A stretch of 64,000 bases of DNA from Sphingobacteriales bacterium 44-15 (GTDB lineage: Bacteria > Bacteroidota > Bacteroidia > Chitinophagales > Chitinophagaceae): positions 232,331 to 296,330 of the forward strand of contig MKWG01000045.1 of NCBI GenBank assembly GCA_001899685.1. The letters are read 5' to 3'. The notes under the pieces were generated by a model. The model was not told the origin of the DNA. It did no database searches and saw only the letters and a program-made list of their open reading frames with translations. A program made the translations under genes and the position numbers. Of this stretch, positions 8,587 to 62,643 are shown piece by piece (position 1 is the first letter of the stretch; the number at the start of each line of letters is the position of its first letter).

Positions 8587-8646
8587 TCTGAGGCAGGAAA
8601 CTGCTTAAGCTATTGTTAAGTCAAGCAAATTATGTCTGTTCATTTT

Positions 8647-8700
8647 CGTGAAACGTGAGAGGTGAAACGTGAGGCAAGCTTTCACCTCTCACATTTCATG
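8647..8700. terminator. Bidirectional word-repeat hairpin between convergent genes
   Basis: TGAGAGGTGAAA (8656-8667) and TTTCACCTCTCA (8680-8691) are a perfect 12-bp pair with a 12-nt loop, and the outer words CGTGAAACG and CATTTCATG extend it with wobble pairs. It lies between the amidase and the convergent Tricorn-like protease. There is no long T tract, so Rho-independent termination is only inferred. Confidence 0.6.
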
Positions 8701-8723
8701 TTTGACATAGCGTCAGTCCGCTC

Positions 8724-12850: not shown

Positions 12851-12883
12851 CGTGAAACGTGAAACGAACATTCACGTCTCACG
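12851..12883. repeat. Word-repeat hairpin (CGTGAAACGTGAA)
   Basis: CGTGAAACGTGAA (12851-12863) faces TTCACGTCTCACG (12871-12883), pairing at 12 of 13 positions with a 7-nt loop. It follows the NAD-binding protein gene and is a possible 3' end. The words are of the same GTGARACGTGA family as at 8647, 24014 and 52864. Confidence 0.65.
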
Positions 12884-24013: not shown

Positions 24014-24080
24014 ATTGTGAGACGTGAAAGGTGAAACGTGAGACTTTCACATCTCGTATCTCACGTCTGCCGTTTCACGA
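24014..24080. repeat. Word-repeat hairpin (GTGAGACGTGAAAGG)
   Basis: GTGAGACGTGAAAGGTGAAA (24017-24036) and the continuing CGTGAGA face TTTCACATCTCG and CTCACGTCTGCCGTTTCAC (24060-24078); the arms pair imperfectly. It lies between the end of the sugar-transferase gene and the M1 peptidase promoter, where it could end the first transcript. Confidence 0.6.
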
Positions 24081-33334: not shown

Positions 33335-33341
33335 AAAGGGT

Positions 33342-33382
33342 GAATGGTGAATAGTGAATGGGCAATATTCACTATTCACCAT
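33342..33382. repeat. Perfect 17-bp hairpin between rpoB and rpoC
   Basis: AATGGTGAATAGTGAAT (33342-33358) and ATTCACTATTCACCATT (33366-33382) are exact reverse complements around the 7-nt loop GGGCAAT. A further TTGACTATTCACCC copy of the word follows (to 33393). It is built of the short word GTGAATAGTGAAT and has no T tract, so it may set the rpoB/rpoC ratio or be an RNase processing site rather than a full terminator. Confidence 0.8.
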
Positions 33383-33433
33383 TGACTATTCACCCCTCAC
33401 ATAAAACCTGTTATAAAAAACCAAGAAATTTAT

Positions 33434-46559: not shown

Positions 46560-46600
46560 CTCCTTATCTCTCACCACTCACCACTTACCTCTTACCACTT
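46560..46600. repeat. Single repeat arm of CTTACCACTTA words
   Basis: The run CTCACCACTCACCACTTACC then TCTTACCACTTA between RlmN and the sterol desaturase repeats one arm of the word family seen at 1954-1990 and 54516. No opposite arm is close by. Confidence 0.55.
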
Positions 46601-48430: not shown

Positions 48431-51400
48431 CTACATGTTTCTCCTGTATTGCCCGCCCACTTCATACAGCGCATGGGTGATCTGCCCGAGCGAACAATAC
48501 TTCACGGTATGCATCAGTTCCGAAAATATATTTCGGTTACTCATAGCCGTTTCCTTCAGCTTTTGTAAAGCTTCGCAGGCCCTGCCTTCGTTTCTTTTAT
48601 GAAAATGCAGCAGGTTCTCTATTTGTTGCTCCTTTTCTTCAGCAGTGCTTCTTATTACCTCGCCGGGGATCACGGTATGCGATTCTTTTTTATTAAGAAA
48701 AGTATTCACCCCCACTATCGGCAGTTCCCCGCTGTGCCTGAGCTGCTCATAGTGCAGGCTTTCTTCCTGTATCTTGTTGCGCTGGTACATTCTTTCCATT
48801 GCTCCCATCACCCCGCCCCTCTCGTTCAGCCGCTCAAATTCCATCATTACCGCTTCTTCCACAAGATCAGTTAAGGTCTCTATGGCAAAGCTGCCCTGGA
48901 TGAAGTTCTCGGTTTTTGCCGAGCCCAGCTCCCGGTTGATGATAAGCTGTATAGCCATAGCCCTCCGCACACTTTCTTCGGTAGGGGTGGTTATGGCTTC
49001 GTCATAGGCATTGGTATGGAGCGAATTGCAATTGTCGTATATGGCATACAACGCCTGCAGGGTGGTGCGTATATCGTTAAAAGCTATTTCCTGCGAATGC
49101 AGGCTCCTGCCGCTGGTTTGAATATGATATTTCAGCTTTTGAGAACGCTCATTGCCCTTATACTTGTATTTTATGGCTTTTGCCCATATCCTCCTTGCCA
49201 CTCTTCCTATTACACTGTATTCGGGATCTATGCCATTGCTGAAAAAGAAGGAAAGATTAGGAGCAAAATCATCAATATGCATACCACGGCTGAGATAATA
49301 CTCCACATAAGTAAAACCGTTGGCAAGCGTAAATGCAAGCTGTGTAACAGGGTTGGCTCCCGCCTCTGCAATATGATAACCGCTGATACTTACGCTGTAA
49401 AAATTCCGGACTTTGTTTTCAATAAAATATTCCTGCACATCGCCCATCAGCTTCAATGCAAATTCGGTAGAGAAGATGCAGGTATTCTGTGCCTGGTCTT
49501 CTTTCAGGATATCAGCCTGCACCGTACCTCTCACCTGCTGAAGGGCTTTTGCTTTGAGGGATCTGTATACTTCAGGGGGAACAACCTCATCTCCTGATAA
49601 TCCCAGCAATTGCAGCCCCAGACCATTGTTTCCTTCAGGTAATGCAGTGCCGTATTGTGGCGGCGCCTGCTCCTGATACCTGCTCTTTTTTACTGCTTCG
49701 GAGGTTGCCTGATACCTATGCTCTTTAATCCATTTTTCGCAAAGCTGATCTATGGCCGCATTCATAAAAAAGGCAAGGAGCACCGGAGCGGGCCCGTTGA
49801 TGGTCATGCTTACAGATGTGGAAGGGTCGCAGAGGTCAAAGCCGCTGTACAGCTTTTTGGCATCGTCCACCGTGGCAATGCTTACGCCGGCATTCCCGAT
49901 TTTCCCGTATATATCAGGGCGGCGGTCAGGATTTTCTCCATATAGTGTCACACTGTCAAAAGCTGTGGATAAGCGTTTTGCCGGTTCGTCTTTCGACACA
50001 TAATGAAACCGTTTATTCGTTCTTTCGGGACCACCTTCTCCTGCAAACATTCTTGTAGGGTCTTCGCCCGTGCGCTTCAATTCAAAAACCCCTGCAGTAT
50101 AGGGAAAAGAGCCGGGTACGTTTTCCTGCAACTGCCATTTCAATATATCGCCCCAGTCTTTGTATGCAGGCAATACAATTTTGGGAATGCCGATACCGCT
50201 CAATGATTGCGTGGATAATGGCTGCCGGATCACTTTGTCCCGTACATGGTATTCGAGATAGCCTGCTGTGTATTTCTTTTTAACTGTTTCCCAGCTTTCA
50301 ATAAGCTTTTCGCATTCCGGGTCTAATTGTGTTTTGAGCTCCCGGTATTTTTCATCCAGGGATCCGGGAATATCATCCAGTATTTCCATTGCACCCTTTA
50401 GCCGGTACAGGCTGGTAGCGATGGCGCTTTGTTCATGCACCCGGCGATCATATTGCCGGATCGTTTCATTGATCTCTCCCAGGTAACGGATCCTGGCAGG
50501 TGGGATCACTGCAGGATGCTTCGCTTCAGCAGTTACCGCAGGGGAAGTATAGCGCCAGCCGGTATGTAGCTTGTTCTCAATTTTTTGTACCAGCAGATCA
50601 AACAAGGCATTTATTCCCGGGTCGTTGAACCTGCTGGCGCAAACGCCTGATACCGGGAGGTTTTCATCCTTTGCAGAGAACAGCAGGTGGTTTCTCTTAT
50701 ATTGCTTTCTCACATCTGCCAGCGCATCCAGGGCGCCGGGCTTGTCAAACTTGTTTACCGCGACGATATCTGCATAATCGAGCATATTGATCTTTTCCAA
50801 TTGCGAAGCTGCGCCGTATTCCGGCGTCATTACATATATGCTCACATCACAGTGGTCTGTTATGCTTATATCACCCTGCCCCACACCAGCGGTTTCCAGG
50901 AGGATGCAGTCATAGCCTGATCGTTTGCAGACAGCAATGGCTTCCTTGGCGGCTTTACTCAGAGCGGTATTGTCTTCCCGTGTTGCCAGCGAGCGCATAT
51001 ATACGCGGGGATGCGCTACTGCGTTCATCCTGATGCGGTCGCCCAGCAATGCGCCTCCTGTTTTTCTCCTGCTGGGGTCTACCGATAATACCGCAATGAT
51101 CTTTTCCGGGAAACTCCTGAGGTATCGTCTTACTATTTCATCGGTTACCGAAGACTTACCTGCCCCACCGGTTCCCGTTATCCCGATCACCGGCACAGTA
51201 GCGCGAATAAGTGTTGCAGGCAGCAGGGCATCATACGGCATATTGTTCTCTGCGAGCGTTATCGCTCTTGCAGTCTTTCTTATATCTGTTCTTTCACCTA
51301 AGGGAGGAATGCGCCATGAAGTATCTAATGGGCGCAGATATTGACTTATGTTTTGCTGAATTTTATCCAGTACATCCATTATCATCCCTTCCAGTCCCAT

Positions 51401-51772
51401 CCGCCTGCCGTCGTCGGGGCTGTAGATCCTGGCTATACCATAGTCCTCCAGGAGCTTTGCCTCTTCGGGCAGGATAGTGCCGCCGCCACCGCCGAAGATC
51501 AGGATATGACCACAGCCGCTTTCCTGCAGCAGGTCTTTAATATATTTGAAAAATTCTATGTGACCTCCCTGGTAGCTGGTAACTGCTACTGCATTTGCAT
51601 CTTCCTCAATGGCGCATTCCACAATTTCCTTCGCAGAGCGGTTATGCCCCAGGTGAATGACTTCCGCTCCTTTGCTCTGCAATATCCGGCGCATGATATT
51701 GATGGCAGCATCGTGCCCGTCGAATAAGCTGGCGGCAGTTACGATCCGTATTTTTGATATAGCATGGTCCAT
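48431..51772 (-). CDS. icmF: Isobutyryl-CoA mutase, fused (IcmF type)
   Basis: 1113 residues from ATG 51772 ([20 protein letters not shown]); the open frame further upstream translates a word repeat. Domain order: N-terminal B12-binding domain with the cobalt-ligand His in [10 protein letters not shown] (about 1-140); MeaB-like G-protein chaperone with P-loop [16 protein letters not shown] near residue 200; linker; C-terminal acyl-CoA mutase barrel with [20 protein letters not shown] and [20 protein letters not shown]. The Phe in RMFAGE, where methylmalonyl-CoA mutase has Tyr, and this single-chain order fit IcmF. It interconverts isobutyryl-CoA and n-butyryl-CoA. It diverges from the FAH hydrolase gene. 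Confidence 0.93.
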
Positions 51773-51830
51773 GGCAATCGGATACTGTAAAGGTAGGCAA
51801 AAACTAATGTGCGTTAGTTCCTGTTGTGAT

Positions 51831-51882
51831 GTTAAGCGTGAAACGACAGACGATAAATGTGAGCACTTAACGTTTATCGTCT
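51831..51882. repeat. Word-repeat inverted repeat in the icmF-FAH divergent gap
   Basis: AGACGATAAA (51848-51857) and TTTATCGTCT (51873-51882) are a perfect 10-bp pair, with GTTAAG (51831) and CTTAAC (51866) adding to it. The words GTGAAACGACAGACG resemble the other GTGARACG loci. It overlies the 5' side of icmF, where it could affect expression of either divergent gene. Confidence 0.6.
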
Positions 51883-51994
51883 CTCTTCTCATAGAAAAAT
51901 GCGCCCTGTTTTCCCTTATTCAGTCATTTATAAAAATCGTTTGGCACAGATAAAAAATGGGGGTAGCTTAGTCCGCACAAAAAAAGGATACAGC

Positions 51995-52855
51995 ATGAAA
52001 TTAATCAGATTCGGAAAAGCAGGCAAAGAAAAACCAGGCATCGAATTAGAAGGCGGAAAACGCATTGACGTTTCTTCATTTGGAGAAGATTATACAGAAC
52101 AGTTTTTTGAAACGGACGGTATTCGCAGGTTAGCAGAATGGGTAGATACAAATAAAAATTCCTGCCCGGCGGTAAGTGATACTGAAAGACTGGGCTCTCC
52201 ATTGTACAGGCCATCAAAGCTGATCTGTATAGGGCTGAACTATTCAGATCATGCGGCGGAAAGCAATATGCAGTTGCCTACGGAGCCTATTATTTTCTTC
52301 AAGGCCACCACCGCTATTATTGGTCCCAACGACAACGTGGTGATCCCCAGGGACAGTACCAAAACCGACTGGGAAGTGGAGCTGGCCGTAGTGATAGGGA
52401 AAAAAGCTTCTTATGTGGAAGAAAAAGATGCAGACGACTATATTGCCGGCTATGTGTTGCATAATGATTATAGCGAAAGAGCTTTTCAACTGGAAAGAGC
52501 AGGGCAATGGGTAAAGGGTAAAAGTTGCGATACTTTTGCGCCCCTGGGGCCCTGGCTGGTAACCAAAGATGAAATAAAGGATGTGAACAATCTGCGGTTA
52601 TGGCTGACGGTGAATGGTAAAACTTTCCAGGACGGCAACAGCAAAAACCTTATCTTCAAAATCCCCTACCTGGTATCATACCTCAGCCAGTTTATGACCC
52701 TTTTACCGGGTGATATCATTACTACCGGAACACCTGCCGGCGTAGGATTGGGACAAAAGCCTGACCCTGTTTACCTGAAGGCCGGCGACGTTGTAGAACT
52801 GGGAATAGAAGGACTGGGTCAATCCCGGCAGCAACTGGTGGACTGGAGCAGATAG
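51995..52855 (+). CDS. Fumarylacetoacetate hydrolase family protein (probable diketo-deoxy-sugar-acid hydrolase)
   Basis: 286 residues from ATG 51995 (MKLIRFGKAGKEKPG). The FAH metal-site residues are in TDWEVELAVVIGKKAS (Glu-x-Glu) and LHNDYSER, and the C-terminal GDIITTGTPAGVGLGQKPDP block is typical. In bacterial non-phosphorylating L-fucose and L-rhamnose pathways this family cleaves 2,4-diketo-3-deoxy-fuconate or -rhamnonate. The adjoining mutarotase, lactonase, dehydrogenase and FucP genes make L-fucose the likely substrate line. It diverges from icmF. Confidence 0.9.
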   Translation: MKLIRFGKAGKEKPGIELEGGKRIDVSSFGEDYTEQFFETDGIRRLAEWVDTNKNSCPAVSDTERLGSPLYRPSKLICIGLNYSDHAAESNMQLPTEPIIFFKATTAIIGPNDNVVIPRDSTKTDWEVELAVVIGKKASYVEEKDADDYIAGYVLHNDYSERAFQLERAGQWVKGKSCDTFAPLGPWLVTKDEIKDVNNLRLWLTVNGKTFQDGNSKNLIFKIPYLVSYLSQFMTLLPGDIITTGTPAGVGLGQKPDPVYLKAGDVVELGIEGLGQSRQQLVDWSR

Positions 52856-52863
52856 TTAAAATA

Positions 52864-52922
52864 GTGAGACGTGAGATGTGAAACGTGAGACGGACTTTCA
52901 CGTTTCACATCTCACGTCTCAC
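52864..52922. repeat. Perfect 25-bp inverted repeat of GTGAGACGTGAG words
   Basis: The left arm 52864-52888 and right arm 52898-52922 are exact reverse complements over 25 bp, around the 9-nt spacer GACGGACTT. Each arm is made of the words GTGAGACGTGAGATG and GTGAAACGTGA. It lies between the FAH hydrolase and the mutarotase, genes of one expected pathway, so full termination seems unlikely unless a second promoter follows. Confidence 0.9.
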
Positions 52923-52966
52923 GAAAACAAACGGGCAGAATTTGATTGACTTAACAATTATTACCC

Positions 52967-53299
52967 ATGACAAGATATTGCCTCACCTGCGATCTGAAGG
53001 ACGATCCTGCCGTGATAGCAGAATACAAAAAGATCCATCAGAATGTTTGGCCGGAAATACTTCAGAGGATCAAAGCTGATGGTATTACGGTGATGGATAT
53101 ATACCTTTCGGGCAACCGGATGTTTATGATCATGGAGGTAAAAGACGGTTTTTCCTTTGAACGCAAAGCAGCTTCTGACGCTGCTGATCCCAAAGTGCAG
53201 GAATGGGAAAACTTTATGTGGTCTTTTCAGCAGGCCCTGCCCTGGGCCAAGCCGGGAGAAAAATGGGTAATTATGGAAAAGATTTTTGAATTAAAATAA
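52967..53299 (+). CDS. L-rhamnose/L-fucose mutarotase family protein
   Basis: 110 residues, complete: MTRYCLTCDLKDDPAVIAEY, HQNVWPEILQRIKADGI, a DIYLSGNRMFMIMEV strand, WENFMWSFQQALPWAKPGEK near the end. RhaM/FucU-like mutarotases interconvert sugar anomers; here it probably feeds the dehydrogenase with the right anomer of L-fucose. It follows the 25-bp hairpin and is 10 bp upstream of the SGNH hydrolase. Confidence 0.9.
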   Translation: MTRYCLTCDLKDDPAVIAEYKKIHQNVWPEILQRIKADGITVMDIYLSGNRMFMIMEVKDGFSFERKAASDAADPKVQEWENFMWSFQQALPWAKPGEKWVIMEKIFELK

Positions 53300-53309
53300 A
53301 ATTGCCTTT

Positions 53310-53981
53310 ATGAAACGGATACTCCTGTTTGCCTCTCTTGTTATTATTCTTGCGATTGTCTCTGCCTTCAGGCTGATGCAAAAGAAAAAAGTGATTTTTT
53401 TCGGTGATTCTATTACGCAGGCAGGTGTGACACCGCATGGTTATATCACTCTCCTGCAGCAAATGCTTGCCAAGGAAGGCAGGGATAACGCCTTCGATCT
53501 TATCGGTGCAGGAATAGGAGGAAACAAAGTGTATGATCTTTACTTCCGGCTTGAAGATGACGTGTTATCCAAAAAGCCGGACATCGTTTTTATATACGTG
53601 GGAATAAATGATGTATGGCATAAGAAAAGCAATGGCACGGGTACAGACCCTGACAAATTTGAACGTTTTTACAATAAGATCATTGATAAGCTGCAGGCTG
53701 CAGGCGCTAAAGTGATCATTTGCACTCCTACGGTAATTGGTGAAAAGAAAAACTTTGTGAACGAGCTGGATGGCGACCTGAACAAATACGCAGCCATCAT
53801 ACGGAATATAGCAAAGAACAAAAACACCGGGCTGATCGACCTGCACAAAGCCATTCTTGAATATATTGACACCCACAACCCGGAAGATAAGGACAAAGGG
53901 GTGCTTACCACAGACGGAGTGCACATGAATGATACCGGGAATGAGTTTTTGGCGAAGCAGTTTTATCAGTATATAAAGTGA
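53310..53981 (+). CDS. SGNH/GDSL hydrolase
   Basis: 223 residues with an N-terminal signal or anchor (ILLFASLVIILAIVSAF). The four SGNH blocks are visible: FFGDSITQAG (Ser), GAGIGGNKVYDL (Gly), YVGINDVWHK (Asn) and TTDGVHMNDTGNEF (Asp/His). An exported esterase, possibly removing acetyl or other acyl groups from glycans, is likely; its place in a sugar operon suggests deacylation of L-fucose-containing glycans. The stop codon lies in the left arm of the 19-bp word repeat. Confidence 0.9.
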   Translation: MKRILLFASLVIILAIVSAFRLMQKKKVIFFGDSITQAGVTPHGYITLLQQMLAKEGRDNAFDLIGAGIGGNKVYDLYFRLEDDVLSKKPDIVFIYVGINDVWHKKSNGTGTDPDKFERFYNKIIDKLQAAGAKVIICTPTVIGEKKNFVNELDGDLNKYAAIIRNIAKNKNTGLIDLHKAILEYIDTHNPEDKDKGVLTTDGVHMNDTGNEFLAKQFYQYIK

Positions 53982-53996
53982 TAAGTGGTTAGTGGT
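53978..53996. repeat. Left arm of the 19-bp inverted repeat around the four-helix-bundle gene
   Basis: GTGATAAGTGGTTAGTGGT is the exact reverse complement of 54531-54549. It overlaps the stop codon of the SGNH hydrolase. The words recur at 1954-1990 and 46560. Confidence 0.85.
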
Positions 53997-54018
53997 AAGG
54001 GGTAAGAACGCGGGATGT

Positions 54019-54110
54019 AGAGGCAAGGCATGCCTTGCCTCTGAAGTGATAAGTGATTAGTAGTAAGTGGTAAGAAATGCGAGACGTAGAGGCAAGGCAT
54101 GCCTTGCTCT
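54019..54110. repeat. Tandem pair of AGAGGCAAGGCATGCC palindromes
   Basis: The palindrome at 54019-54042 (core AGAGGCAAGGCATGCCTTGC, 24 nt, perfect) is repeated at 54088-54110 with one base lost from its right side. Both are flanked by similar GTAAGAA text, giving a ~70-nt direct repeat. It lies upstream of the four-helix-bundle gene. Confidence 0.85.
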
Positions 54111-54139
54111 CAAGGCAGAGCCCCAAAAAACAGCTAACA

Positions 54140-54508
54140 ATGCATACACCAATCGTAAAATTTGAGGATTTGATTGCCTGGCAAAAAGCGCAGGACCTGG
54201 CAGTGGAAGTATATCGGACATTTATGACGATAAGGGATTTTGGCTTCAGGGGTCAGATATGTTCCGCGGCAGTGTCGGTGTCAAATAATATTGCAGAAGG
54301 ATTTGATTCGAGAAGCAAGAAGGACTTTGCAAGATTTTTAAATATTTCCCGTAATTCATGCAACGAAGTGAAATCCATGTGCTACCTGGCTGAACGATTA
54401 AACTATATAGCAGAAAGTAAAAAAGCGGACCTGATACTGACCTGCAGTGAAGTCTCTAAAATCATTACAGGATTAATACGCTCTATCGAAAAAAAACTAA
54501 ATGCATAA
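54140..54508 (+). CDS. Four-helix-bundle protein (S23-type)
   Basis: 122 residues from ATG 54140 (MHTPIVKFEDLIAWQKAQDL). A longer frame from 54077 would translate the palindromic repeat and is rejected. The conserved parts are FEDLIAWQKAQDLAVEVYRT, SAAVSVSNNIAEGFDSRS and FLNISRNSCNEVKSMCYLAE. Relatives are encoded in intervening sequences of some 23S rRNA genes, and free-standing copies are very common in Bacteroidota; their function is unknown. It interrupts a likely sugar operon and is bracketed by a perfect 19-bp inverted repeat, which suggests it came as a cassette. Confidence 0.88.
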   Translation: MHTPIVKFEDLIAWQKAQDLAVEVYRTFMTIRDFGFRGQICSAAVSVSNNIAEGFDSRSKKDFARFLNISRNSCNEVKSMCYLAERLNYIAESKKADLILTCSEVSKIITGLIRSIEKKLNA

Positions 54509-54513
54509 ATTTT

Positions 54514-54560
54514 CTAACCACTTATCACTAACCACTAACCACTTATCACTTATCACTAAT
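54514..54560. repeat. Right arm and extra words of the 19-bp inverted repeat
   Basis: ACCACTAACCACTTATCAC (54531-54549) is the exact partner of 53978-53996. It is flanked by more copies of CTAACCACTTATCACTAACC words up to 54560, ending just before the amidohydrolase ATG. Confidence 0.85.
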
Positions 54561-54570
54561 TTTACCACTT

Positions 54571-56245: not shown

Positions 56246-57490
56246 ATGGCGATCACGTCAACCACTACTGCTGCCGCAGCGCCCGCCAATGGTAAAGGGT
56301 ATCTTTTCCCTCTTATTCTGGTAACAAGCCTTTTTCTTTTATGGGGACTTGCTTATGGACTGCTGGATGTGCTGAACAAACATTTCCAGGAAGCATTGAA
56401 TGTAACGAAAGCAAGATCTACCCTGCTTCAGGCGGCGTATTTCGGCGCTTATTTTCTTATAGCATTGCCGGCGGGCATATTTATGAGTAAATATGGCTAT
56501 AAAAAGGGCATTATCCTGGGGCTGCTGTTATACGCCACGGGCGCCTTTTTATTTTATCCGTCAGCGCAACTGATGAGCTTTAATTTCTTTCTGCTTGCCG
56601 TATTCATCCTGGCTTCAGGGCTCACCTGTCTTGAAACGGCAGCTAATCCCTATGTAACGGTTTTGGGTAAGCCGGAAACCTCGGAATTCCGGCTCAATCT
56701 TTCGCAGTGCTTTAACGGGGTGGGGTCTTTTATCGGGCCCATCATTGCAGCAAATGTTTTTTTCAACGAAAGCGGCAGCGGGTCGGGCAACCTTGATTCA
56801 GTGAGGATGGTTTATATAATCATTGCCATCGTGGTTTTGTTCGTGGCCTTTTTATTCTGGCGAACATATTTACCGGAGATAAAGGAAAGCGAGATGGTTT
56901 CCAGCAAAGTGCAGGACACCAAACCTCTTTTTCAGCACAGTCATTTTGTGTATGGCGTTATTGCCCAGTTTTTTTATGTTGCGGCACAGGTAGGTATAGC
57001 CGCCCTGTTCATCAATTATTGTACAGAAGCAAAGCATGAAATTGATAATGCCAAAGCATCCTACCTGCTTTCCATAAGCCTTTTATTATTTACTGTAGGA
57101 CGGTTTGTGGGAACGGCGCTCATGAGAAAGATCGCGCCCAACACCTTATTGATGATCTTTGCGCTTATTAACATTTTACTCTGCGCAGTAGTGGTGTTCG
57201 GCAACGGCTGGCTCTCAGTATATGCCCTGATGACAGTATTTTTCTTTGAAAGCATAATGTTCCCTACCATTTTTGCACTTGGTGTAAAGGATCTGGGTCA
57301 TCATACCAAAAAAGGTTCTTCTTTTCAGATCATGTCAATTGTTGGCGGAGCTTTAATGCCTTATTTCATGGGGCTTCTTTCAGAAAAAGCTACAGCTCAG
57401 GCATATATCATTCCTCTTTTTTGCTTTATAGTGGTGGCATGGTATGGCTGGAAAGGGTATAAGATCAAAACAGGCGCGGTAAGAAGCTAG
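56246..57490 (+). CDS. L-fucose:proton symporter family MFS transporter (FucP-like)
   Basis: 414 residues with twelve predicted helices. FucP family marks are LLWGLAYGLLDVLNKHFQEA, the QAAYFGAYFLIALPAGIFM helix and SGLTCLETAANPYVTVLG. It imports L-fucose or a related 6-deoxyhexose with protons. Its position at the end of the mutarotase-lactonase-SDR series supports L-fucose, though FucP relatives also take glucose, galactose or other sugars. An unusual word-repeat hairpin follows the gene. Confidence 0.9.
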   Translation: MAITSTTTAAAAPANGKGYLFPLILVTSLFLLWGLAYGLLDVLNKHFQEALNVTKARSTLLQAAYFGAYFLIALPAGIFMSKYGYKKGIILGLLLYATGAFLFYPSAQLMSFNFFLLAVFILASGLTCLETAANPYVTVLGKPETSEFRLNLSQCFNGVGSFIGPIIAANVFFNESGSGSGNLDSVRMVYIIIAIVVLFVAFLFWRTYLPEIKESEMVSSKVQDTKPLFQHSHFVYGVIAQFFYVAAQVGIAALFINYCTEAKHEIDNAKASYLLSISLLLFTVGRFVGTALMRKIAPNTLLMIFALINILLCAVVVFGNGWLSVYALMTVFFFESIMFPTIFALGVKDLGHHTKKGSSFQIMSIVGGALMPYFMGLLSEKATAQAYIIPLFCFIVVAWYGWKGYKIKTGAVRS

Positions 57491-57498
57491 GGTTATGT

Positions 57499-57604
57499 CA
57501 AACGTAAGAGGTGAGACTATAAGGTGAGAATTTCACATTTATCGTTTGTCGTCTCACCTCTCACGTCTGTCATTTCACCTCTCACGTCTGTCGTCTCACG
57601 TTTG
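57499..57604. repeat. Word-repeat inverted repeat after the FucP-like gene
   Basis: ACGTAAGAGGTGAGAC (57502-57517) faces GTCTCACCTCTCACGT (57551-57566), pairing at 15 of 16 positions. More CTCACGTCTGTC words continue to 57604, with CAAACGT and ACGTTTG at the outer ends. Confidence 0.7.
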
Positions 57605-62465: not shown

Positions 62466-62557
62466 GCTGAATAACCGGGGATGCCTCATAGATTTGGGAA
62501 AAAGGAGTATATCGCCACTAATGCACGAATATGTAGTGTTAATTCATAAAAAATTCT
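62466..62557. repeat. Copy of ~90-nt dispersed repeat
   Basis: GCTGAATAAC, CCTCATAGATTTGGGAAAAA, GGAGTATATCGCCACTAATG, CACGAATATGTAGTG and AATTCATAAAAAATTCT follow in the same order as at 39733-39823, with few mismatches. A diverged copy lies directly upstream (from 62408), so the unit may be tandemly arranged here. Confidence 0.75.
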
Positions 62558-62559
62558 GT

Positions 62560-62643
62560 ACAACAAAAGGAGATATAGCCACAAATGCACGAATGGATGG
62601 TCAATTGAAAAAAACTTCACTGGTGCATTCGTGGCTTTGTTGT
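62560..62643. repeat. Long hairpin of CACGAATGCAC words after gdhA
   Basis: ACAACAAA (62560-62567) faces TTTGTTGT (62636-62643) at the tips, and AGCCACAAATGCAC (62577-62590) faces GTGCATTCGTGGCT (62622-62635) with one mismatch. The loop is about 30 nt. Confidence 0.7.

Follow-up and report, generated by a model that had tools for sequence, protein, structure and literature searches.

23S rRNA intervening sequences (IVSs) form a stem that carries an S23/IVP gene (PF05635, TIGR02436) in its loop and is cut by RNase III. The STRR sequences of cyanobacteria are heptanucleotide repeats, located in intergenic regions and described as direct repeats. The TAACTGA repeat of Beggiatoaceae also has a 7-nt period, is intergenic and is presented as a direct repeat (PMC4679880). 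Among Bacteroidota, BrickBuilt of Porphyromonas gingivalis is described as an intergenic element with MITE-like ends and internal tandem repeats of 23 nt, present in 19 copies in one strain (PMC4596501). REP/BIME elements are described as high-copy intergenic hairpins with GTAG/CGTC tags and short stems that prefer tandem and convergent gaps (PMC3733652).

Here, we analyse a 64,000-nt stretch of the Sphingobacteriales bacterium 44-15 genome (the window). At 52864-52922 it contains a hairpin whose arms consist of 7-nt words (heptads). This hairpin is probably a gene-less, MITE-like, lineage-specific insertion of a class whose larger forms carry a PF05635 gene. As in the IVSs, the PF05635 gene of the larger forms is enclosed by complementary ends. 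In contrast to the IVSs, these insertions lie between protein genes instead of in rRNA, their arms are heptad arrays with locus-specific words, and most arrays were seen without a gene. Period and intergenic location are shared with STRR and the Beggiatoaceae repeat, but here a complementary array follows the first one and a PF05635 gene may lie between both. BrickBuilt, compared by description only, shares the Bacteroidota host, the intergenic location, MITE-like ends and internal tandem repeats; it differs in repeat length. With REP/BIME elements the family shares high copy number and choice of gaps, whereas its stems are composed of heptads and no link to RAYT was found.

A lineage-specific insertion in a conserved gene pair

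The hairpin and its surroundings comprise the following features:

51995-52855, plus strand: FAA hydrolase gene (PF01557, profile match), upstream of the hairpin
52862-52866, plus strand: TAGTG, a possible remnant of a 5' end, as suggested by 41 element readings
52864-52922, plus strand: heptad hairpin with exact arms 52864-52888 and 52898-52922
52923-52956, plus strand: 3' tail (GAAAACAAACGGGCAGAATTTGATTGACTTAACA) common to the dispersed elements (alignment and nhmmer)
52967-53299, plus strand: L-rhamnose/L-fucose-type mutarotase gene (PF05336, profile match), downstream of the hairpin

The initial annotation had described a perfect 25-bp hairpin with a 9-nt spacer, built of near-repeat words. 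This description is correct, and the hairpin is non-random. The arms are exact reverse complements (25/25 pairs), and each comprises three and a half heptads, GTGAGAC GTGAGAT GTGAAAC GTGA, mirrored in the second arm. With loops of 3-20 nt, 25 nt is the longest exact arm in the whole window; five dinucleotide shuffles reach only 9-11. In the RNA fold of 52820-52980, the stem grows to 27 pairs with a loop of 5 nt (z -8.2; 0/200 shuffles equally stable). A genome search for exact arms, which had been proposed as a check, found the 25-mer twice in 6.0 Mb, both times as an arm of this hairpin. With at most three mismatches, 114 sites were found, the two arms themselves counted (control 0).

The names given to the flanking genes, FAH hydrolase and mutarotase, were likewise right. 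The mutarotase gene is followed by genes for a GDSL lipase, 23S_rRNA_IVP (PF05635), Amidohydro_2, a short-chain dehydrogenase and an MFS transporter, a set that appears to fit an L-fucose-type cluster. All 11 congeners searched have the mutarotase gene, in each case adjoining the FAA hydrolase gene. The gap between both measures 20-55 nt and lacks a hairpin in 11/11 congeners; in the window it has 111 nt. The nearest named relative (L084), whose FAH is 89% identical, has a gap of 48 nt, also without hairpin. Subtraction of the 92-nt element from the 111-nt gap leaves 19 nt, near the 20-55 nt of the relatives, and none of the genomes searched showed an ortholog of the hairpin. The hairpin forms the core of an insertion of about 92 nt (about 52865-52956) that is specific to this lineage and interrupts a conserved gene pair. 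A conserved regulatory RNA was rejected because the site is empty in all 11 congeners. The suggestion that the hairpin is a special conserved structure of the pathway is not borne out either: apart from its absence in these relatives, its words recur at hundreds of sites in the genome.

In other genera, the same gap has arrays of different 7-nt words (records of Longitalea, Niastella and Ferruginibacter, among 28 records with both genes), which means that it has been used repeatedly. Locus L108 contains a piece of a PF05635-type gene together with heptads inside this gap itself.

A dispersed family of heptad hairpins

Further hairpins of the same kind are present in the window, which the initial annotation had overlooked:

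8611-8715, minus strand: second family member, 105 nt, both ends recognisable
12852-12882, plus strand: short heptad hairpin
24017-24071, plus strand: heptad hairpin
33340-33400, plus strand: heptad hairpin of GTGAATG words
51839-51891, plus strand: heptad hairpin, imperfect (82%), preceding the FAA hydrolase gene
57488-57600, plus strand: heptad array/hairpin, 5' end of the element type (TAGGGTTATGTCAAAC)

The longest reading of a minus-strand ORF, 48431-51892, crosses the hairpin at 51839-51891. Its listed start is therefore probably too far upstream.

The motif GTGARACGTGARA occurs at 328 sites in the genome (control 1). Of 58 genomes, this one included, 21 have any site, with high counts here (328) and in G032 (199), G019 (73), G015 (65) and G024 (41); the congeners G008 and G011 have none. 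Genomic context was analysed in 864 kb (window, C2:1-400000 and C3:1-400000), about 14% of the 6.0 Mb, with crude longest ORFs as gene maps; C11:1-400000 was included solely in the gene search. Arrays with a lag of 7 nt number 13 in the window, 60 in C2 and 52 in C3, compared to 0-16 for other lags from 5 to 13. They are intergenic in 94/125 cases, while gaps make up about 10-11% of the DNA. Arrays are common in this genome: 86 of the 662 crude ORFs in the window, C2 and C3 have an array on either flank. Among relatives sampled in single 20-kb stretches, an excess of lag 7 was found in G020, G032 and G003 and none in G005, G019 and G001.

The purine-rich arm comes first in 147 genome-wide pattern matches versus 3 with reversed order, these being overlapping matches with several per hairpin. 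Among the 24 gaps with both kinds of array, 23 read > <, one reads > < > < and none starts with <. The hairpin at 52864 has the features of the proposed heptad-hairpin class: 7-nt period, purine-rich array first and complementary array second. Arrays were found in 23/75 convergent and 55/356 tandem gaps but in only 3/89 divergent ones (p 1.1e-5 by length). Therefore, arrays are rare where only promoters lie.

The tail that follows the hairpin ties it to complete elements. A 36-nt alignment with the copy at 8612-8647 shows 83% identity, and the tail is recognized by an nhmmer profile (E 8e-8) built from 29 other copies, with the window copy left out and L220 dropped, as its match was not centred. 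The tail core was found with at most three mismatches at 54 sites in the genome (control 1), among them the window site with three. With at most two mismatches, it is present 11 times in G007, 10 times in G003, twice in G006 and once each in G001, G005 and G009. Aligned copies are elements of about 105 nt with the composition TAGTGYTATGTCAAAC ... heptad hairpin ... tail ... TTAACACTA. Both ends are present in 41 element readings of 91-181 nt, often 105 or 107 nt, which were not collapsed to one per locus and include some loci read on both strands. The terminal inverted repeat (TIR), whose frame has the end motif TGYTATGTCAAAC, has 151 sites in the genome (control 3).

The window copy retains the tail and the 3' end only; the 5' inverted repeat is missing, and this end appears to be truncated. 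Since TAGTG stands directly before AGACG in this copy, 14 nt may have been lost between the GTG repeats of TAGTG[TTATGTCAAACGTG]AGACG, which would explain the missing inverted repeat. With about 92 nt, the element has room for about 30 codons at most and has no coding capacity.

Other repeats were noticed as well. Another repeated end resembling AATATGTAGTGTTAATTCATAAA is located at 62534 in the window, where it adjoins CCACTAATGCACGAAT/CCACAAATGCACGAAT words (about 62515-62636), and at C2:218323, C2:227484, C3:5587 and C3:79104. Smaller palindromes (CCCGTCCGAATGGCATTCAGCCGGGCGG; CCTGCCAGCCGGCAGGCTGG) are nested in the arms of heptad elements (L218, L229, L239, L240 and others).

PF05635 genes enclosed by heptad arrays

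Two gaps beyond the hairpin, at 53979-54570, GTAAGTG-type arrays and their complement enclose a PF05635 gene:

53979-54074, plus strand: 5' heptad arrays of the gene-bearing element (GTAAGTG/GTGATAA words)
54137-54508, plus strand: 23S_rRNA_IVP gene (PF05635/TIGR02436 four helix bundle, E 1.2e-31), between the arrays
54513-54570, plus strand: 3' heptad array (CACTTATCACTAACC words) that directly adjoins the amidohydrolase start and is complementary to the 5' arrays

Thus, a PF05635 gene lies within the paired ends of this element but not in the 52864 hairpin. In the RNA fold, the outer array pairs with the 3' array around the gene (z -5.5). The protein matches the solved structures 2gsc (E 2.7e-12) and 2rld (E 4e-6), five chains each. 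At the same site, the congeners have the PF05635 gene nearly whole (G007), in pieces or not at all; in G006 and G008 the 3' array alone remains, and in G001, G009, G010 and G011 neither was noted. Interspersed among the 5' heptad arrays of this element are two copies of a GAGGCAAGGCATGCCTTGCC-type palindrome (54022-54042 and 54088-54107).

A second PF05635 gene of this genome, C2:73747-74100, is flanked by inverted GGGCTGTGAGCTGTG arrays. Inverted flanks with a score of at least 22 were found for 6 of the 662 crude ORFs in the window, C2 and C3, and these six include both PF05635 genes of the sample. The other four are a RAYT gene (C3:196006), one GxxExxY gene and two others. The flanks of the RAYT-type gene (PF01797, C3:196006-196449) have an inverted match score of 46 and low lag-7 scores (7 and 9); this match is probably due to the gene's own repeats. 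The GxxExxY gene (TIGR04256, C3:328571-328969; locus set L164-L183) resembles the heptad class in its inverted CGCAAAG-word flanks, but its words are spaced by about 8-9 nt, below the array threshold used, and the protein is a different one. Two GxxExxY genes were seen; the second (L161) has other downstream word repeats and no inverted match between its flanks. Possibly, GxxExxY is a second gene type carried by word-hairpins. C11:279688-280104, a TIGR02436 four-helix-bundle gene, has no heptad flanks and is a counterexample. No PF05635 gene was found in the 200 kb sampled from each of G032 and G020.

With the window protein as query, 24 plasmid records were retrieved, 18 of them cyanobacterial; 18 of the 24 hits were examined (all except H2, H5, H8, H14, H15 and H16). 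Together with six Bacteroidota loci they form a set of 24, several of which are orthologous and hence not independent. A lag-7 array above all 100 shuffles is present on at least one side in 20/24 loci, and the inverted match between the flanks exceeds all 200 shuffles in 13/24, with shuffles that preserve single-base composition only. At L113 and L087, lag 7 is not above the shuffles, and the plasmid loci L350 and L357 lack a heptad array. One-sided arrays only were found at the plasmid loci L342-L345, L353 and L359, and L356 and L358 by eye break the rule of G-rich array first and complement second. The words vary by locus: AGGGTGT in Calothrix, GGTGACA in Anabaena, GTAGGGA in Nostoc edaphicum, GACGGAT in Azospirillum and GGTTTAA in Riemerella.

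Among the 36 flanks of the 18 plasmid loci, lag 7 was found in 24, lag 14 in 16, lag 8 in 7 and each remaining lag from 4 to 15 in at most three. Plasmid PF05635 genes have lag 7 on either flank in 15/18 cases versus 20/133 other genes (Fisher 9e-9) and on both flanks in 9/18 versus 4/133 (Fisher 3e-7). The 133 genes were taken from six of these plasmids, and direct neighbours with a flank in common with the PF05635 gene are among them. The inverted flank match of the PF05635 gene is above that of every comparison gene in 5/6 stretches (0/114 as high). The exception is the Pseudanabaena stretch L365, which failed at 150 nt (score 7; 19/19 as high); the same gene passed at 200 nt (L358).

Comparison of filled and empty sites reveals discrete insertions. 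For 5/5 plasmid genes, the added (unaligned) stretch of 494-849 nt is composed of array, gene and array, and at these sites gene-less relatives have 11, 273, 13, 50 and 13 nt. The added stretch ends a few nt from the ends of the neighbouring genes on most sides; on two sides it reaches past an annotated start by up to about 70 nt, and these two starts may be misplaced. Hosts of the insertions include the gene pairs for ribonucleotide reductase beta/alpha and cas6/cas4. The latter was seen twice: in Anabaena sp. 90 (L361) and Pseudanabaena galeata (L365), a type I-D CRISPR operon has a heptad-flanked PF05635 gene between its cas6 and cas4 genes, with different words in the two genera. The 'empty' relative ABRG5-3 has a gene-less heptad array of AATTACG words at the same spot, and the 'empty' Dolichospermum sp. 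UHCC 0315A (L407), with flanks 99% identical, has a different hairpin with GTAGGTTGGGTTGA ends at the Anabaena 90 insertion site. Since both carry other elements at the same spot, gaps are reused. Phage records gave no match with the PF05635 query. No paper among the matches listed in the PMC open literature joins PF05635/S23 with heptanucleotide arrays; subscription papers lie outside this scope.

Origin of the exact arms and movement of the elements

The initial annotation had argued that arms of this length and exactness are either kept paired by selection on RNA or DNA structure or rebuilt by templated copying. Across 24 hairpins, the longest exact run between true mates averages 10.62 versus 9.11 for swapped arms (sd 0.60; 50/5000 permutations as good), and the duplex energy of 24 distinct hairpins is matched or beaten by 277/5000 permutations. 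An earlier covariation version with 23 pairs yielded 7.83 versus 6.58 (sd 0.71) and was not significant alone. Strong arm covariation was rejected: this score is below the largest shuffle (9.35), and the excess among 24 hairpins is small. Mates pair slightly better than swapped arms and 1/552 swapped arm pairs reaches 25 nt; therefore, the perfect pairing at 52864 lies at the far end of a distribution that mostly reflects the small set of words, and the excess of true mates is weak. Hence, the slightly better pairing within the family stands, while selection or templating of the arms is not established.

The exact arms could have originated after insertion, when a heptad array underwent fold-back template switching (quasi-palindrome correction). 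The exact word order is found genome-wide only in the two arms of this hairpin, and the pairing is imperfect in L322 and L323, two related copies. However, given the few words and the swapped pair of 25 nt, chance and shared words may be sufficient, and the left arm of L324 has the same three words, so that the order may have been inherited. We consider template switching possible but doubtful.

Alternatively, the hairpin might be an ordinary MITE: A transposase would act on the terminal repeats, and the heptads would be an internal minisatellite unrelated to PF05635 genes. TIRs, the frequent sizes of 105 or 107 nt, dispersed copies and CTAG-like flanks (G at +1 in 30/41 readings, C at -1 in 19/41) are consistent with this. 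CTAG-like target flanks are known from IS701-type transposases. Such a transposase was rejected as partner, as PF13546 was found in 0/12 genomes of the genus, this one included. No autonomous transposase was seen, either by PF13546 in the genus or by long-spaced TIR pairs among the 100 listed of the 151 TIR sites, and for an IS481-type partner a literature search in PMC found nothing. With the ends drawn at TAG...CTA, 0/41 readings share at least 3 nt outside, and no empty site with matching letters was found that would indicate a target duplication. BrickBuilt provides a precedent for a MITE with an internal tandem repeat (PMC4596501).

Three observations argue against an ordinary MITE. Many Bacteroidota loci have heptad arrays of other words without such a TIR, and PF05635 genes in other phyla are flanked under the same arm rule. 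Moreover, TIR frame and hairpin cargo are separable because the same frame carries different hairpins. In the congener G008 (L297, L308), the terminal frame TAGTGYTAWGTYAA surrounds a different palindrome of CCACGAATGCACGAAT words, and in G010 (L312, L301) it holds another heptad hairpin. Across species (G008, G010 and G009 L300), CCACGAATGCACGAAT words, GTGAATA heptads and others are found inside it. The TIR count in G008 is 21 versus a control of 14; L297 and L308 nonetheless show both ends. An ordinary MITE is therefore rather unlikely.

A functional RNA, paired by selection and acting as intrinsic terminator, mRNA 3'-end stabiliser or processing site, would agree with the stable fold of 52820-52980, the location after stop codons, the avoidance of divergent gaps and the slightly better pairing of mates. 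On the other hand, the hairpin is not conserved and separates two genes that are closely spaced in the relatives. On the coding strand, no T-run follows the stem (GAAAACAAAC), and the hairpin is absent from the terminator scan list. On the opposite strand, TATTTTAA follows the stem and could act on antisense transcripts; five T in 8 nt were found in 5/25 strand readings of such hairpins. We regard a functional RNA as improbable.

A REP/BIME-type element moved by a RAYT tyrosine transposase would likewise be a high-copy intergenic hairpin scarce between divergent genes, as stated for REPs (PMC3733652), but GTAG/CGTC tags with 5-13 bp stems do not fit the 52864 element and the number of PF01797 genes does not track that of hairpin sites (3 versus 328 here, 0 versus 73 in G019, 9 versus 0 in G008), so that this reading was rejected as very improbable.

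A proposed mobile class with and without the PF05635 gene

The preferred reading of the hairpin as a gene-less member of a wider class is as follows. The 52864 hairpin is the core of an insertion of a dispersed MITE-like family, with arms of 7-nt words, purine-rich first and complement second, and without a gene. Larger insertions follow the same arm rule, with a 7-nt period, a G-rich array before and a C-rich complement after, and enclose a PF05635 gene. The gene-bearing insertions might be the founder form, from which gene-less hairpins such as that at 52864 would descend. In this genome, one gene-less hairpin could have become a TIR-bounded repeat and then multiplied. As RNA, each insertion would form a stem; where a gene is present, it would occupy the loop.

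Heptad hairpins and PF05635 insertions are probably one class, as they share period, arm order and sites (L108; ABRG5-3), and because some single arrays mix words of short hairpins with gene-flanking words (C2:111379-111424; window 46564-46595). Against this link, TIR and tail were not noticed on gene-bearing insertions in searches aimed at other questions. Also counting against the preferred reading are the missing 5' inverted repeat of the window copy, the negative outcome of the transposase searches described above, the PF05635 loci that lack heptads or have them on one side only, and the commonness of arrays in this genome.

Tentatively, the heptad hairpins of Bacteroidota and Cyanobacteria may be extended to one small intergenic mobile class. 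The PF05635 protein of the autonomous form might recognise stems with 7-nt steps or help to copy them, and the gene-less forms would be non-autonomous. The word would shift by lineage, with period and arm order fixed. If true, this would account for the heptanucleotide repeats of these phyla and assign a function to the S23/IVP family.

The 52864 hairpin is one copy among many, and its importance lies in the tie to PF05635. PF05635 genes of Bacteroidota, of Cyanobacteria and of one alphaproteobacterial plasmid are flanked by inverted arrays of 7-nt words and, together with these arrays, constitute discrete insertions between adjacent genes. This tie makes both the function of S23/IVP and the origin of heptanucleotide repeats testable and offers a starting point for tracing the emergence and spread of such hairpins.
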